From Candidatus Nealsonbacteria bacterium CG23_combo_of_CG06-09_8_20_14_all_40_13 (GTDB lineage: Bacteria; Patescibacteriota; UBA1384; UBA12157_A; GCA-002773005): a DNA stretch of 32,182 nucleotides. The notes below the pieces were generated by a model, which was not told where the DNA came from, made no database searches, and saw only the letters and a list, made by a program, of their open reading frames with translations. Positions 15,433 through 22,339 of this stretch are shown piece after piece; the first letter of the stretch is position 1; each line of letters opens with the position of its first letter. A program made the position numbers and the translations under genes. The stretch spans positions 15,713-47,894 of the forward strand of contig PCRM01000044.1 of NCBI GenBank assembly GCA_002771215.1. The letters are read 5' to 3'.

Positions 15433-15507
15433 GGGCCCGTAGCTCAGTGGTAGAGCGACAGCCTTTTAAGCTGTGCGTCGCGGGTTCGATCCCCGCCGGG
15501 CCCTCCA
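15433..15507 (+). tRNA. tRNA-Lys (anticodon TTT), CCA encoded
   Basis: Acceptor GGGCCCG/CGGGCCC, D arm GCTCAGTGGTAGAGC, anticodon arm ACAGC-CTTTTAA-GCTGT, T arm GCGGG-TTCGATC-CCCGC, T+CCA. Confidence 0.95.
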
Positions 15508-15510
15508 CAA

Positions 15511-15620
15511 TTGGTCGTTAGTCATTGGTTGTTTGTCGTTGGTCGTTAGTCATTGGTCGTTTGTCGTTGGTCGTTTGTCGTTGGTCGTTAGTCATTGGTC
15601 GTTTGTCGTTGGTGGTTTTT
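15511..15620 (+). repeat. 14-bp minisatellite, about 7 full units plus a partial unit
   Basis: Units TTGGTCGTTAGTCA (A) and TTGGTCGTTTGTCG (B) in order A B' A B B A B, then TTGGTGG. Confidence 0.92.
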
Positions 15621-15649
15621 CAGTATCATTGAAGAAAAAAGGAAATGGA

Positions 15650-16009
15650 ATGAGCGAAAATTTACAAGAAGGTCAAAAACACAGTCCAGAAGAAGAAAAA
15701 GACCACTTTGCGGAGCAACAGCAACAAGAGCTGGCGCGTCGTCGCGAAGCTGGCGAATTAGCGCCTTATGACTATGAGGTAATTTACATTCAGTATCTTC
15801 AGCAAGACGGTGAGCCTGTCACCCTTAAAGATGTTGAAAATCATGCCATTGTTATTAACCCCGATGAATTTGAAACCCTTGGCTTCATTGAATTTGTGAA
15901 GGCCAATGGCGAAATAATTAACATTGATTTTACGGATGAAGGTTTTGACAGAAGCCATCCGTTAATCATTTTTCTTGAAGAACTCGGGGACAAAAAATCA
16001 TCTGAGTAA
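15650..16009 (+). CDS. Hypothetical acidic protein, 119 aa
   Basis: Probable start MSENLQEGQKHSPEEEKD; the upstream in-frame part of ORF 15473-16009 is tRNA plus minisatellite. Glu/Asp-rich, no recognised family. Confidence 0.65.
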   Translation: MSENLQEGQKHSPEEEKDHFAEQQQQELARRREAGELAPYDYEVIYIQYLQQDGEPVTLKDVENHAIVINPDEFETLGFIEFVKANGEIINIDFTDEGFDRSHPLIIFLEELGDKKSSE

Positions 16010-16060: not shown

Positions 16061-16197
16061 CTTTTGAGAAAAAACCAGATTAAAAATACAATCAGAACAA
16101 ATAAAAAACCAAAAAGTACCAGCATCGTTTGACAGGTGCAGGCGCCGCCTTTTTCTTTCTTTTTATCAATTTCGTCATAAAAATTATCTTTGGCCAT
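16057..16197 (-). CDS. Single-TM miniprotein, 46 aa (absent from ORF track)
   Basis: Own translation: MAKDNFYDEIDKKKEKGGACTCQTMLVLFGFLFVLIVFLIWFFLKR*; start overlaps the murJ 3' end. Confidence 0.6.
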   Translation of the reverse strand: MAKDNFYDEIDKKKEKGGACTCQTMLVLFGFLFVLIVFLIWFFLKR

Positions 16198-17740
16198 TGG
16201 CTCTGACTTCCTTCAGTTTAAATATCCAAGCTAGAACAAAATAAACTAAAATACCCACAGTTGCGGCTCCAAAAGTTTGTACAAAAATGCCCCAAAAACG
16301 GTGCATATCAACTACTGGTGCCAAAATATACTTGGACAGCTGAATTGCTACAGCCATCAGCAAAGACATAAGAATTACTTTGGCTACGAATATAAAAATT
16401 ACTGACGCTTGTATCGTTTTATTGTCTTTTTGAAATAATATATAAAGCAACAAGGCGTTCAGAAAGCTTCCTAAAGAAAAAGCCAAAGCTAAACCGGCTA
16501 CACCGAGTGTTTTTGCGAAGATATATCCAAAAATTATCGAAAGCAAACCTGAAATTATGCTTATGGTCATCGGTGTTTTCGTGTTTTGCCGGGCGTAAAA
16601 AGCTCGTGCTAAAAGTGGAATACTGCCTTGCGCGACCAATGAAATGGCGAAAAACCCTAATGTCTGTGAGGTTAAAATCGTTTGCTCCCAGCCAAAATGT
16701 CCTGAGCCTAAAATTAATCGGACAATCTGGGTGCGTAATAATATCATCCCAACAGACAATGGGATCAAGAAAAATAAAACTGTCCTTAAAATTCTGTTAA
16801 AATAGTAGGAAAATTTTTCATCATCTTTAAGAGAAACTGTTTCGGAAAGCAAAGGGAAAACTGCCGTAGCAAAAGCGGTGCCAAAAACAACTGTCGGCAT
16901 TGTTTGGATATTATCAGCAAGATTGAAAATTGCCACCGCCCCACCTCCCAAAGCTGAACCGATAGCCGTATAAACAAGCAAAAGAAGCTGCTGCGAGGCC
17001 AAACCGATGGTGCGCGGTACCATTAATTTTAAAATACGCCTGGCACCCTGGCAAAGCGGATCCCAAACTAAACGCCACCTAAATCCTAAAGAATAAGCGG
17101 CGGGCAATTGGACGACCATATGTAAAAAGGCTCCAGCCACAACGCCGAAGGCAACACCATAAACTGAATATCTACCTGACAAGAACAAGGTGGCAACAAT
17201 AATTGACAGGTTATAAAACAATGGTGCGACTGAATAAGCTAAAAATCTCTTGTAAGAGTTTAAAATCCCCCCAAAAATATACGAGAAACCAAAGAAAACC
17301 GGCGAAAGAAGCATTAAACGTGAAAGCTTAAGCGTAATCTCCTGTTTCTCTAAATCAAACTTTGGCACTAAAACAGGCACTAAATAGGGCATAATTATAA
17401 ATAAAATTATGCAAGCAAGAATTACTGCAATTAGGGCCATATTCAAAAAAACATTGGCAACATACCACCCATCTTTGGTCCTGTTTTGCCATATATAAGA
17501 AGTAAAAACCGGAATGAAAGCGGAAGTGATGGCGCCTAAAATCATCAAGTTGAAAATTAGGTCGGGTAGCCGAAAGGCGGCATAATAGGTGTCCAAAAGT
17601 GAAGTAGGAATTTTTTGCGCTAAATAGTGATCACGAACGACACCCAGAATATTGCTTAAAAAGAGTGTTATTATCAGAATCAATGAGGCGCCTTTAAGAC
17701 TATTTTGGCCGCCAATATAATTTTTAAAAAATTTCATCAT
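16184..17740 (-). CDS. murJ: Lipid II flippase MurJ/MviN
   Basis: SNILGVVRDHYLAQKIPTSLLDTYYAAFRLPDLIFNLMILGAITSAFIPVF; about 14 TM segments. Confidence 0.93.
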   Translation of the reverse strand: MMKFFKNYIGGQNSLKGASLILIITLFLSNILGVVRDHYLAQKIPTSLLDTYYAAFRLPDLIFNLMILGAITSAFIPVFTSYIWQNRTKDGWYVANVFLNMALIAVILACIILFIIMPYLVPVLVPKFDLEKQEITLKLSRLMLLSPVFFGFSYIFGGILNSYKRFLAYSVAPLFYNLSIIVATLFLSGRYSVYGVAFGVVAGAFLHMVVQLPAAYSLGFRWRLVWDPLCQGARRILKLMVPRTIGLASQQLLLLVYTAIGSALGGGAVAIFNLADNIQTMPTVVFGTAFATAVFPLLSETVSLKDDEKFSYYFNRILRTVLFFLIPLSVGMILLRTQIVRLILGSGHFGWEQTILTSQTLGFFAISLVAQGSIPLLARAFYARQNTKTPMTISIISGLLSIIFGYIFAKTLGVAGLALAFSLGSFLNALLLYILFQKDNKTIQASVIFIFVAKVILMSLLMAVAIQLSKYILAPVVDMHRFWGIFVQTFGAATVGILVYFVLAWIFKLKEVRANGQR

Positions 17741-17746
17741 AGATTA

Positions 17747-17752
17747 ATTATA
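17747..17752 (-). promoter_or_regulatory. Extended -10 promoter element (TGA-TATAAT) of murJ
   Basis: Minus strand CTGATATAATTAATCT-ATG; hexamer ends 6 nt before the start codon. Confidence 0.55.
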
Positions 17753-17798
17753 TCAGATAAAACCGTTAAAATGCTATGTTTAATTTTTAAAATTGACC

Positions 17799-17819
17799 TG
17801 TGGATAAGTTTTATCCACA
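17799..17819. promoter_or_regulatory. Inverted pair of perfect DnaA boxes
   Basis: TGTGGATAA-GTT-TTATCCACA, both 9/9 to the consensus TTATCCACA. Confidence 0.65.
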
Positions 17820-17881
17820 AGGTATTAAACAATGATTATGAACCTGTTATAAGCAAGAAAATACTTAATCATCTTGGGAGG

Positions 17882-17910
17882 TTGACAAAGAGCACTTTTA
17901 GTGCTATTAT
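17882..17910 (+). promoter_or_regulatory. Consensus sigma70 promoter TTGACA-N17-TATTAT
   Basis: TTGACA 17882-17887, exactly 17 nt, TATTAT 17905-17910. Confidence 0.8.
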
Positions 17911-17916
17911 ATATTT

Positions 17917-18211
17917 ATCTAAGTAAAAATTTGCATACGGTCAGGGAGGGGTATTTATTATCTTTGAACTCTAGGGATAATAGATATGCTTGCCTTACCG
18001 TAAAAACAAAAATCCTCCTTGGTGGAACTCGAAAACAAAAATCACCTCTTTAACAAACGGTAAGGTACAAAAAGGCTTAAAACTGCTTCTTACGAGGGAC
18101 CACAGCGTTCTTGGTAGGATGTTGTAATTTGAGCCAATTAGAAAAAAAGGCGCGACGAGCGGTCAATAATTTAAAGTTAGATTAGGCCGGTTCTCGACTC
18201 GCGCCTTTTTC
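17917..18211 (+). ncRNA. Candidate structured non-coding RNA, family unidentified
   Basis: Consensus promoter immediately upstream, no good ORF, several self-complementary helices, and a GC-rich terminator stem followed by TTTTT. Confidence 0.65.
18149..18211. terminator. Bidirectional terminator shared by the ncRNA (+) and dnaB (-)
   Basis: GGCGCGA.CGAG.CGG ... CCGG..CTCG..TCGCGCC; T-run on the plus strand and AAAAAAA (T-run on minus) on the other side. Confidence 0.75.
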
Positions 18212-18222
18212 ATTGACTAAAT

Positions 18223-20844
18223 TTATGAGGGCTTACCTGCTCTCTTCTTATCTATACTTCTAAAGCACAATTGTTCTGGCACAAAAAAGAGTTCAATATC
18301 ACCGCAAGGACCATTGCGGTGTTTCCTAATTAAGATATCGGCAATATTTTTTCTTTCTGTATCTTTGTCATAATAACCCTCCCGGTAGATAAACATAACG
18401 ACATCAGCATCTTGTTCGATCGAGTTGTGCACAATGATATCATTAGCTACGAAATTGTGGCTGCCCACAACTGTGGCATCATACACTTCTTCAACTGCTA
18501 AAGGTTTAATTTCCAATATCTCGTCCCAGAAGATATCAGATTGGGCAAGATTGACTAATTTTTGATCCGGTATTGCAGTAGTAATGTGCAGCATTCTTTG
18601 GCGCGAAATGCCATTATGATATCTTTGCGTTCCCGAATAAGCCCAACCCAACTGTTGATGAAATTGGCGTGCAGTGAGAGTCCAATAAGACCGCAGCCGA
18701 TTAATTGTCTGCCAGATTTGTTTCGGAATCACGTCCAAATTGGGATTGAATTTAACTTTTTCTAAAAACCCAAGCGCTTTTTTAACCAACTTTTCTTTCT
18801 TCCCAAAAATACCAATTTGGCTTAGGAACTTCCATTGATCCTCTTTGCCGGAAATATCTACATGGTACCCTGGTTGATAGCCTTTTTTGTAACTTCTCCT
18901 TAGGCGTGCCGTGATACCAAAACGAATAAGTAAATGCGCCAATTGGCGAGCCAGCTTTTCACTTTTAGTAGCGTAATAAATGGTCCAGCCGGATTGGCTG
19001 ATATTGCAGCTGTAAGAAATCGTCCCATCGGTGGCCCAAAGATGCTTAATAAATAAGGCGAGTTTCTCTTTCGGTAGCTGAAAAATAATCTGGGGGATCA
19101 CTTTTTCACCAGATCTTTGATTGAAAATTTCTAAATCCGAGAGCCATTTCACAACCGGGTTGTGGCGGCCCCTCGCCAAGGGGTAAGGAGACGTCGTAAA
19201 AAGATGCCACCAATTCTTTTGTTTCACTAACCTGGTTTTGACTCCAAAAGCTTTTTGGGCCGCTATTTTAACTTCTTGCAGGCATAATGGATCGGCGTTG
19301 GTATATTGCAAAGAATGATTTTTAAGATAGCAACCATCGCCAATCAGGTGCGCTAAAACAATAATCTTTTCATCTTCTAAATTTTCTCGCCCTTGATAGG
19401 ATAGTTCTCGCGGTACCGCCAAATGTTCACCTATCTTTAATTGATCAAGTCTCTTCCAGCCCAAAATGGTGTAAAAAGGATGATTAGCCGAAGCGTTGAT
19501 TTCTTTGCCCGAGGCTAAGCGTAGTTTGTAGACCTTTTTTCGGCCCGATGGAAAAGCTTTGACCATCATCTGCCGCTCAAGCTTCAATCCCTCCCTTAAG
19601 CTGAGAACGGGAATTGCTATTTTTTTCTTGGCCAACTCTTTAATCGTGAAAAGCTTACCGGTATGAGCATGCATAATTTGAGTATTGCCGGTTAAACAAC
19701 CACTTTCCCTCAAGTCCGCCAGTTGGGGTCTTTTGCCCGGACGCATTTCAACTGCCCGTGAAAGTTGTGAAAGGGCTAATACGGGAACATTCAGTTCTCT
19801 GGCCAACGCCTTCAGCGCCCGCGATATCTCAGAAACTTCCGCAACTCGATTGTCGCTAGATTTTTGGCTACCAGCCATCAACTGAAGATAATCTATGACT
19901 ATCAAGCCAATTTTACTCTCAAGTTGCAATCGGCGCGCCTTGGTACGAATTTCCGTAACATTCAATAGTGGTGAGTCGTCAATAAAAATTGGCGCTTCAG
20001 ATAAAACACCCATGGCATAGCCAATTTTAGGAAAATCTTCGTCAGTTAAATTACCGGTACGCAACTTCCAAGAATCAAGGCCTGATTGAGAACAGATTAA
20101 TCTGTCCACTAGCTGCTCTTTGCTCATCTCCAGAGAAAATATTCCAACTGGCACTTTTTCTTTGACTGAGGCGTTTAGGGCAATATTCAACGCCAAGGAG
20201 GATTTACCCATCGAAGGTCGAGACGCTAAAATGATTAAATCGGATTGCTGTAGTCCCGCCAACAGGTTATCTAGGTCAGCAAAACCCGTAGGGACACCGC
20301 GCAACATGCTTTTATTTTTAGAAAGCTTATCTATTCTCTCAAATGACTCGGTTAGAACATCTTTAATCGGGATGAAATTCTCTTGCAAAAAGGACTGTGA
20401 AACCGAAAATAACTCCGATTCGGCTTTGTCTAAAACTTTTTCCACATCTTCTGCCTCTTGAAAACCAAATTCTGCTATCTTAGAGGCAGCAGAAATAAGT
20501 CGGCGCAAAACCGATTTTTGCTGAATTATTTGGGCATAATGAGCCACGTGAGCGGCGGTGGGCACAGAATTTACCAAAGAAGTCAAATAGCTTGCCCCGC
20601 CGACATCTTTTAATTTCTTTTCTCTTTCTAATTCATCGGTCAAAGTTACCAGGTCAATTGGAGAACGCTTCTGGTAGAGCTTGAGCATCGCTTGATAAAT
20701 TTGGGCGTGGTCGTTGCGATAAAAGTCAGCGGGAATAATAATATCCGCTACCTTCACAATAGCGTTTTTATCAAGCAAAATAGCGCCCAAAACTGACTGT
20801 TCGGCTTCAACATTTTGTGGTGGAAGTTTGACGCCGTCACTCAT
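18223..20844 (-). CDS. dnaB: Replicative DNA helicase DnaB with in-frame intein
   Basis: MSDGVKLPPQNVEAEQSVLGAILLD; ASRPSMGKSSLALNIA; IDYLQLM; DLRESG|intein|SIEQDADVVMFIYRE. Start ATG 20844 overlaps dnaX stop (ATGAGTGA). Confidence 0.95.
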   Translation of the reverse strand: MSDGVKLPPQNVEAEQSVLGAILLDKNAIVKVADIIIPADFYRNDHAQIYQAMLKLYQKRSPIDLVTLTDELEREKKLKDVGGASYLTSLVNSVPTAAHVAHYAQIIQQKSVLRRLISAASKIAEFGFQEAEDVEKVLDKAESELFSVSQSFLQENFIPIKDVLTESFERIDKLSKNKSMLRGVPTGFADLDNLLAGLQQSDLIILASRPSMGKSSLALNIALNASVKEKVPVGIFSLEMSKEQLVDRLICSQSGLDSWKLRTGNLTDEDFPKIGYAMGVLSEAPIFIDDSPLLNVTEIRTKARRLQLESKIGLIVIDYLQLMAGSQKSSDNRVAEVSEISRALKALARELNVPVLALSQLSRAVEMRPGKRPQLADLRESGCLTGNTQIMHAHTGKLFTIKELAKKKIAIPVLSLREGLKLERQMMVKAFPSGRKKVYKLRLASGKEINASANHPFYTILGWKRLDQLKIGEHLAVPRELSYQGRENLEDEKIIVLAHLIGDGCYLKNHSLQYTNADPLCLQEVKIAAQKAFGVKTRLVKQKNWWHLFTTSPYPLARGRHNPVVKWLSDLEIFNQRSGEKVIPQIIFQLPKEKLALFIKHLWATDGTISYSCNISQSGWTIYYATKSEKLARQLAHLLIRFGITARLRRSYKKGYQPGYHVDISGKEDQWKFLSQIGIFGKKEKLVKKALGFLEKVKFNPNLDVIPKQIWQTINRLRSYWTLTARQFHQQLGWAYSGTQRYHNGISRQRMLHITTAIPDQKLVNLAQSDIFWDEILEIKPLAVEEVYDATVVGSHNFVANDIIVHNSIEQDADVVMFIYREGYYDKDTERKNIADILIRKHRNGPCGDIELFFVPEQLCFRSIDKKRAGKPS
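18424..19698 (-). mobile_element. DnaB intein, 425 aa, LAGLIDADG-type homing endonuclease domain
   Basis: Starts CLTGNTQIMHAHTGKLFTIKEL, ends VGSHNFVANDIIVHN followed by S; endonuclease-like blocks LAHLIGDGCYL and FIKHLWATDGTIS. Confidence 0.93.
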
Positions 20845-22339
20845 CCTGCTCCTCAACTCCAAAAAGGTCTTTGGCAGAAAGAAGCATATCTTCTTCCTCC
20901 TGTTTTATCTTTTCTTTATCCAATAAGATACAATCAATTAATAGGTCTCTCCCCAGAACTTGGCTTAAAGTTTGCTCTATTATAACACGGTTTTGGTGTT
21001 GCAAAATTTTCTCTTTATGAAACTTAAATTGCGCGGCCAAAACCAATTTATTCTCTTCAATAATAACCGGCTTGGCATCTTTGAGTAAAGCAAAAAGCGA
21101 ATGATTATGAGGTTTGATACCATTTAAAATCTTCTCCCATAAAACAGGGTTGATATTTTGCTCTGTTGCTTTTTGATAAGGAGTCTTCCTGTCTGCAGCC
21201 GCATCTGAAATATTTGAAGTTTCTTTATTGGCAGTAACCTTTAAAATATCCTGACCTAATAGTAATTGAGATTTGGCAATGGCCAGTTCTAAAGGCAGTT
21301 GAAGAATAAAACTTGTCTTAATCTGCGATTGACTTTCCAAAAATAGATTGGCCAAAGCTAAAATTTTATCAGGCGCAATAGCTTGGGCTTTTTTGACAAT
21401 CTCTGTTAAATTTTCATCTTCTTGCTCAAAATTGGTCTGCGCGCCCATCTTTAACAAAAGTATTCGGCGCAACGCTGAAACAACCATCTGGTTGAAATTT
21501 AAAAAATCTATACCTTGAACAAATAATTCTTCAATTAAATCAAAAGATTTGTCTTGCTTGCTCTGAAAAATATAACCGATTAACTGGTAGACAGATTCCC
21601 ATTTGCCCAATCCCAAAGCGGCACGAATCTCTTTAACACTAATTTCTTTGTTTTGAGTCAGATTTAAAGATTTTATCTGGTCTAAAATGGAAATGGCATC
21701 ACGAAAAGCGCCGTCTGAAAGGCTAGCAATTAAATTTAGGCCTTCGGAAGAAATTTTAAAATCTTCTTCTTTGGCAATTTTGGACAAAAGCTGGACAATT
21801 TCTTTAATTTTGGCCCTTTTGAAATCAAACTGCTGGCAACGGGAGAGAATAGTCGCCGGCACTTTGTGCGCTTCAGTAGTTGCCAAAATAAAAATTACGT
21901 GGGCGGGTGGCTCTTCCAAAGTTTTCAACAGCGCATTAAATGCTTCGCGGGTAAGCATATGGCATTCATCAATAATAATTACCTTATATTTACCTAAACT
22001 GGGGGCAAATTTTACTTTTTCGCGCAATTCCCTCACCTCATCAATTCCGCGGTTAGACGCGGCGTCAATTTCAATTAAATCCAAACTCTTGCCGGAAATT
22101 ATCTCCACGCAACTTTGACATTTATTGCATGGTTCGGCTTTGCCTTTCTGACAATTGAAAGCTTTAGCCAAAATTCTGGCGACGGTTGTTTTACCCGTAC
22201 CTTTAGGCCCGGCAAATAAATACGCGTGCGAAATTCGACCACTCTCCAAAGCCGACACCAGCACTTTCTTGATGTGGTCCTGAGAGTGAACATCTTTAAA
22301 TTTTTGGGGTCTGTATTTACGATATAAAGAGAGTGACAT
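20837..22339 (-). CDS. dnaX: DNA polymerase III subunit gamma/tau
   Basis: MSLSLYRKYRPQKFKDVHSQDHIKKVL, FAGPKGTGKTTVARILAKAFNC, CxxCxxC-like zinc module, DECHMLTREAFNALLKTLEEPP. Confidence 0.95.
   Translation of the reverse strand: MSLSLYRKYRPQKFKDVHSQDHIKKVLVSALESGRISHAYLFAGPKGTGKTTVARILAKAFNCQKGKAEPCNKCQSCVEIISGKSLDLIEIDAASNRGIDEVRELREKVKFAPSLGKYKVIIIDECHMLTREAFNALLKTLEEPPAHVIFILATTEAHKVPATILSRCQQFDFKRAKIKEIVQLLSKIAKEEDFKISSEGLNLIASLSDGAFRDAISILDQIKSLNLTQNKEISVKEIRAALGLGKWESVYQLIGYIFQSKQDKSFDLIEELFVQGIDFLNFNQMVVSALRRILLLKMGAQTNFEQEDENLTEIVKKAQAIAPDKILALANLFLESQSQIKTSFILQLPLELAIAKSQLLLGQDILKVTANKETSNISDAAADRKTPYQKATEQNINPVLWEKILNGIKPHNHSLFALLKDAKPVIIEENKLVLAAQFKFHKEKILQHQNRVIIEQTLSQVLGRDLLIDCILLDKEKIKQEEEDMLLSAKDLFGVEEQDE

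Follow-up and report, generated by a model that had tools for sequence, protein, structure and literature searches.

The window, the 32,182-nucleotide stretch of DNA analysed here, carries a candidate gene for a structured non-coding RNA (ncRNA) between murJ and dnaB. The locus contains the following features:

16184-17740, minus strand: murJ, the other neighbour of the RNA gene
17799-17819, no strand assigned: inverted pair of exact DnaA boxes (TGTGGATAA at 17799-17807, TTATCCACA at 17811-17819), about 100-120 bp ahead of the RNA start
17882-17910, plus strand: sigma70-type promoter, TTGACA-17-TATTAT, 11/12 consensus, with TG ahead of the -10 element
17917-18211, plus strand: predicted ncRNA transcript of about 295 nt (fold z -7.3, no ORF, homologues)
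17936-18002, plus strand: 5' hairpin H1 (TACGGT...ACCGTA), from separate folds, bearing a Shine-Dalgarno (SD)-like GGAGGG at 17945-17950
17993-18065, plus strand: alternative long-range helix CCTTACCG (17993-18000)/CGGTAAGG (18058-18065), read by eye, which excludes pairing of the H1 base
18003-18073, plus strand: A-rich insert, largely unpaired, with anti-SD-like ATCCTCCTT (18012-18020) and ATCACCTCTTT (18041-18051)
18074-18135, plus strand: middle hairpin M, with outer helix GGCTTAAA/TTTGAGCC, an asymmetric internal loop and an inner TCTTAC (18088-18093)/GTAGGA (18114-18119)
18144-18210, plus strand: 3' hairpin T and terminator, with P1 GGCGCGA/TCGCGCC and flanking A/T, P2 CGAG/CTCG, a 3' bulge GTT, P3 CGGTC/GGCCG and an apical loop containing TTTAAAGT
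18223-20862, minus strand: dnaB (with intein), convergent neighbour and conserved syntenic anchor

TTGACA occupies 17882-17887 and TATTAT 17905-17910, and this promoter, predicted from the sequence as a consensus match, ranks first among nine promoter-like sites within 2 kb. No credible ORF follows it, all six frames of 17911-18211 being interrupted by stops. The plus-strand RNA folded with an energy of -99.8 kcal/mol versus -64.6 ± 4.8 kcal/mol for 200 dinucleotide shuffles, none of which was as stable, while the minus strand of the same region gave a z of only -1.8; without the terminator hairpin, the body still reached a z of -4.5. The minimum-energy fold contains an 11-bp helix with one U.G pair (TATTTATTATC, 17952-17962, with GATAATAGATA, 17976-17986), the outer helix of M (18074-18081 with 18128-18135) and its extension CTTCTTAC (18086-18093)/GTAGGATG (18114-18121). 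The first-pass annotation had described the promoter, the lack of a credible ORF, the 11-bp hairpin and the extended distal helix, and each of these was confirmed.

The terminator stem (18149-18155 with 18199-18205), flanked by runs of A and T, is palindromic enough that it could serve both directions, ending the RNA as well as the convergent dnaB (stop at 18223). Further upstream, CCUUACCG (17993-18000) was read by eye to have two partners, either the base of H1 (17936-17941) or CGGUAAGG (18058-18065), and a similarly placed CCUGCCG/CGGCAGG pair (CCTGCCG/CGGCAGG in DNA) was seen by eye in the copy G036a. It is possible that the two pairings define mutually exclusive folds, and hence a candidate switch.

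Homologues and covariation

The window genome (G000; assembly of 654 kb) is the sole member of its order in the comparison set, which consists entirely of MAGs and for which covariance-model E-values are rough. A blastn search with the whole RNA recovered the 3' hairpin only, with two copies in G030 and one in G036, all 80-84% identical to the window hairpin. The four sequences (G000, G030 twice, G036) served to build the covariance model R1, which identified, at E below 1e-4, new copies in G008 (two), G025, G013, G021 (two) and G048, as well as a second copy in G036. When run over 384 genomes of the phylum, R1 matched almost exclusively members of one class, with a single copy in G070 as the exception. 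The class carrying the RNA is Berkelbacteria (Patescibacteria). A second model (R2), built from 13 sequences, showed the same class restriction and found additional copies outside its training set in G038 (3e-8), G051 (1.4e-4) and G054 (1e-3). The 3' hairpin model (18144-18210) has copies in 12-13 genomes of the class. The G070 copy, in a genome of another class (L056, 1501-1567, minus strand; E about 2e-6), has a 12/12 promoter upstream, and dnaB is not near in the stretch seen.

About ten more dnaB loci (G001, G002, G003, G005, G006, G009, G012, G016, G019, G024, G049) showed a strong promoter and, after it, a similarly built hairpin with a weak or no model score; judged by eye, these are probable members of the family. 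The 27 RNAs collected comprise about 13 recognised in this way (promoter and hairpin at dnaB) and 14-16 recognised by covariance model, and about half of the class genomes are without a recognised copy. Nearly all copies are preceded by promoters with 10-12 of the 12 consensus positions, and RNA length ranges from about 140 to 660 nt.

The versions in G054, G049, G009 and G037 (L115, L139, L131 and L121) are about 590-660 nt long, with A-rich spacers, several hairpins repeating a UUAAAU-type loop and a common GAGAUGGGG...CCCAGCUC hairpin; such long versions are possibly arrays of protein-binding modules. In G008, the two copies (L029 and L049) have near-identical 3' hairpin interiors and unrelated 5' parts, as if the hairpin had been shared or converted within the genome.

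Among 13 aligned copies of the 3' hairpin, 95.8% of the cells were paired and 11 of the 15 pairs (20 cells) had changed on both sides. Shuffles gave 3.4 such pairs, with none of 500 equalling the observed count, and slid controls gave no more than 3. The alignment had been fitted to the model, and the shuffles ignore relatedness, so that kinship inflates the counts, but the margin is large. Covariation in P1 may be partly driven by termination, as terminator stems are kept for that alone. Beyond the outer stem, the hairpin continues into an inner stem, and its A/U-rich apical loop carries a near-constant UUUAAA/UUAAAA. A short second stem, bulged on the 3' side, was recognised by eye as CGAG/CUCG in the window, CGAC/GUCG in G054 and GCAG/CUGC in G049.

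The formal covariation count covers the 3' hairpin, and M rests on separate folds and k-mers. In the separate folds of all members examined, the outer helix of the middle hairpin varied freely in sequence and was joined through an asymmetric internal loop to an inner helix of UCUUAC with GUAGGA. The 5' hairpin bears GGAGGG in several families, and an H1-like ACGGT..ACCGT hairpin is also present in G008a. Without their terminators, the bodies of all 27 RNAs were more stably folded than their shuffles, with z between -1.7 and -9.8. K-mers counted in the 27 RNAs without prior choice brought out AGGAGGG (9 RNAs versus 0.7 expected), TCTTAC (9 versus 1.5), GCACCT (7 versus 0.7) and TGGTAGG (6 versus 0.3), and GGAGGG was enriched, being present in 14 of the 27; plain GGA was no more frequent in the window RNA than expected, the enrichment being limited to the longer AGGAGGG. 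Common to the bodies are AGGAGGG, GCACCU and the pairing of UCUUAC with GGUAGGA in a hairpin, the anti-SD-like stretches being a feature of the window RNA and not family-wide. No conserved start codon follows AGGAGGG, which is therefore not simply the ribosome entry site of a small ORF.

Association with dnaB and DnaA boxes

A DnaB match was obtained in 53 of the 56 class genomes. A copy of the RNA lies downstream of dnaB in each of the 11 genomes in which the models support a hairpin and DnaB was matched (G000, G036, G030, G008, G025, G013, G048, G047, G032, G038 and G054); a twelfth genome, G021, has RNA copies and no DnaB match. There is no circularity in this synteny test, since R1 was built on the hairpins of G000, G030 (two) and G036 only: four of its eight new copies (G008a, G025, G013 and G048) lie downstream of dnaB, a locus that makes up well under 1% of a genome, and the R2 copies of G038 and G054 also sit there. 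In G008, a sigma-factor-like gene separates dnaB from the RNA. The dnaB-RNA-murJ order of the window is kept in G048, G047, G032 and G038, and the second copies of G030, G036, G008 and G021 sit away from dnaB.

The RNA is on the same strand as dnaB in G030a, G036a, G008a, G013, G025, G038 and G054, and on the opposite one in G000, G048, G047 and G032; G038 belongs to the same family as G048 and G032, yet its orientation to dnaB differs from theirs. Since the RNA occurs in either orientation between the same neighbours, it is a stand-alone gene, neither a leader nor a 3'UTR.

The intein of the window DnaB lies between ADLRESG / CLTGNTQI and VVGSHNFVANDIIVHN / SIEQDADV, and the G030 DnaB has an intein at the same place. 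Split or very long DnaB frames in G025, G038 and G048 suggest inteins there too, and a uvrD-like helicase beside the RNA locus of G030 (L022, 2-2287) also appears to carry one (QCLSGKTKVL...EGVVVHNS). Elsewhere in the window, an ORF beside the tRNA-Lys gene (15473-16009, plus strand) starts with a repeated LVVSHWSFVVG-type stretch, which is probably a DNA repeat and not protein.

The two inverted DnaA boxes of the window are about 106-118 bp away from the predicted RNA start, and boxes in the same position class occur in G025, G013, G002, G001, G006 and G016. The regions from -250 to +60 around the 27 RNA starts (8.4 kb) contained 14 exact boxes, at 9 RNAs, versus about 0.2 expected from the 8 exact boxes in a 400-kb sample of G008. 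Twelve of the 14 were 74-175 bp upstream of the RNA start, and the dnaB-independent copies G030b and G008b each had one at about +15. In a promoter control drawn from a single background genome, G008, only one of 56 other strong promoters had a box, and this was the second G008 copy of the RNA itself. Of the 13 exact boxes found in 139 kb downstream of dnaB (50 genomes), 12 precede the promoters of these RNAs. Eighteen of the 27 copies have no DnaA box within 250 bp. DnaA is an established transcription factor at such boxes in other bacteria. The positions of the boxes make a DnaA-linked transcription of the RNA somewhat probable.

Known families and alternative explanations

A scan against Rfam 15 gave no family at or above its gathering threshold, only sub-threshold chance matches. 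One of these, STnc40 (RF02057), resembled the terminator stem GGCGC...GCGCCTTTTT with 21.1 bits against a gathering score of 45, but the match covers the generic terminator part only and both strands match equally. For tmRNA, there was no Rfam match, and ARAGORN found only tRNA-Lys in the window. No description of this RNA family, or of any ncRNA in Berkelbacteria, was found in the literature. An own promoter, a covarying T hairpin with a UUUAAA-type loop and the location at dnaB mark a new, dnaB-associated family of Berkelbacteria. We are thus dealing with an undescribed RNA family of an already known kind, the stand-alone structured bacterial ncRNA.

Several proposals of the first-pass annotation could be followed up in this way. 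The cmscan comparison with Rfam left the novelty of the RNA standing; the collection of loci from relatives yielded homologues in several families of the class; and the covariation check on them, run as the pair count above, came out in favour of a conserved structure in the 3' hairpin. Its statement that the RNA lacks tmRNA and 6S signatures agreed with the negative ARAGORN, Rfam and 6S searches. Its reading as a structured ncRNA that has a promoter of its own and shares a terminator with dnaB gained support from the lack of an Rfam match, the homologues, the covariation, the dnaB synteny and the conserved promoters. The DnaA boxes, the common motifs AGGAGGG and UCUUAC/GGUAGGA and the two-way pairing of CCUUACCG are additions to that annotation. 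We consider it very probable, from these sequence comparisons, that 17882-18211 is a real, conserved gene for a folded RNA that does not code for protein.

We considered whether the RNA might be a functional analogue of 6S, which is abundant, binds the RNA polymerase holoenzyme and tunes global transcription. This role is vacant in the class, RF00013 finding no 6S RNA over its cut-off in the 56 genomes (one sub-threshold match; none in the window genome), and the copies are like 6S in being stand-alone, in their strong promoters and in their similar size; furthermore, in G030a, G036a and G008a the M hairpin forms a rod interrupted by an internal loop. Yet, cmscan of 17500-18600 gave no 6S match even at E values of 0.5-10, the family spans lengths of about 140 to 660 nt, and the RNA folds into at least three separate hairpins, its 5' and 3' ends not closing the single long rod with a large central bubble that is typical of 6S. 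Known 6S RNA is rejected for the window genome, and a 6S analogue is unlikely. Still less probable is a conserved two-way terminator of dnaB next to a chance promoter, with no functional RNA. Compensatory changes are indeed kept in terminators, and the palindromic hairpin also serves dnaB, but the sequence of the apical loop and P3 are conserved although unneeded for termination, the upstream bodies are strongly folded and have common motifs, the orientation to dnaB flips, and second copies away from dnaB (G030b, G008b, G021a/b) have their own promoters.

We give about as little credence to a leader acting in cis, be it a riboswitch or an attenuator, and to an mRNA for a very small protein. 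The series of promoter, structure and terminator and the SD-like AGGAGGG, which in a few members has an ATG just after it, would fit, but orientation and downstream gene vary between relatives, no coding gene lies downstream in a fixed orientation (the window dnaB is convergent), and the starts after AGGAGGG are not conserved and lead into no open frame. The DnaA boxes and the adjoining dnaB could also indicate that the locus is a replication origin, at which the RNA would prime or regulate initiation in cis. This is highly improbable: in G008, a single contig, the sign change of the GC skew, near 400 kb, falls at dnaA (404 kb), around which DnaA boxes also cluster, the RNA-dnaB locus being at 230 kb and the second RNA copy at 475 kb, and each RNA locus has only 0-3 boxes. 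The GC skew and the position of dnaA in G008 led us to reject a chromosome origin at the RNA locus. A phage or plasmid origin was also discarded, the hairpin pattern matching none of 2.9 million viral contigs. Finally, several members have GGA-containing loops, and the purine-rich GGA motifs within hairpins recall sponges of the CsrB/RsmZ type, which bind the translational regulator CsrA; the window genome, however, has no CsrA (PF02599), and neither do 51 of the 56 class genomes, including most carriers of the RNA. A CsrA sponge, which can practically be dismissed, is refuted for the window genome by the absence of csrA from an assembly that misses a few percent.

A possible link between replication and translation

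The RNA is likely to be the product of a stand-alone, sigma70-transcribed gene of about 295 nt, a member of an undescribed Berkelbacteria family of structured ncRNAs, DnaA-linked and acting in trans. As to target and mechanism, which we infer, a DnaA-linked, trans-acting structured RNA is the best reading. According to this scheme, DnaA would bind the upstream boxes and tie transcription of the RNA to the replication state. The RNA would then act in trans. Its likely contacts with mRNA leaders or the 30S subunit are the SD-like GGAGGG and, for the window RNA, the anti-SD-like CCUCC/CACCUC; AGGAGGG might base-pair with the 16S rRNA anti-SD. The translation of some genes would thereby track the replication state. 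For the T and M hairpins, a role in stability or protein binding is proposed. An action on translation through SD/anti-SD pairing is the likeliest single mechanism, though we propose it tentatively, on the motifs found. More speculative still is the idea of a DnaA-controlled, lineage-specific global riboregulator, which would couple the replication state to global translation (or transcription) through exposed SD- and anti-SD-like segments and fill the place of the missing 6S RNA in an ultra-small, symbiont-like cell.

Few ncRNAs have been described for Patescibacteria (CPR), and RNA-based regulation tied to chromosome replication may operate here. A conserved RNA family with promoters of its own at the gene for the replicative helicase DnaB, and with DnaA boxes ahead of those promoters, would offer a lead into the growth regulation of tiny, mostly uncultured cells that are without many of the usual regulators. 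The covariance model and the list of copies are ready for use in annotation.

The nearest parallel, in concept only, is CcnA of Caulobacter crescentus (PMC8959179); we claim no relationship in sequence or structure. CcnA is 182 nt long and is encoded inside the origin, with CtrA as its presumed driver, whereas the present RNA is found at dnaB, off the origin. Both are stand-alone ncRNA genes with DnaA boxes and a link to replication, a proposed one for the present RNA, and CcnA acts on the translation of cell-cycle regulators.
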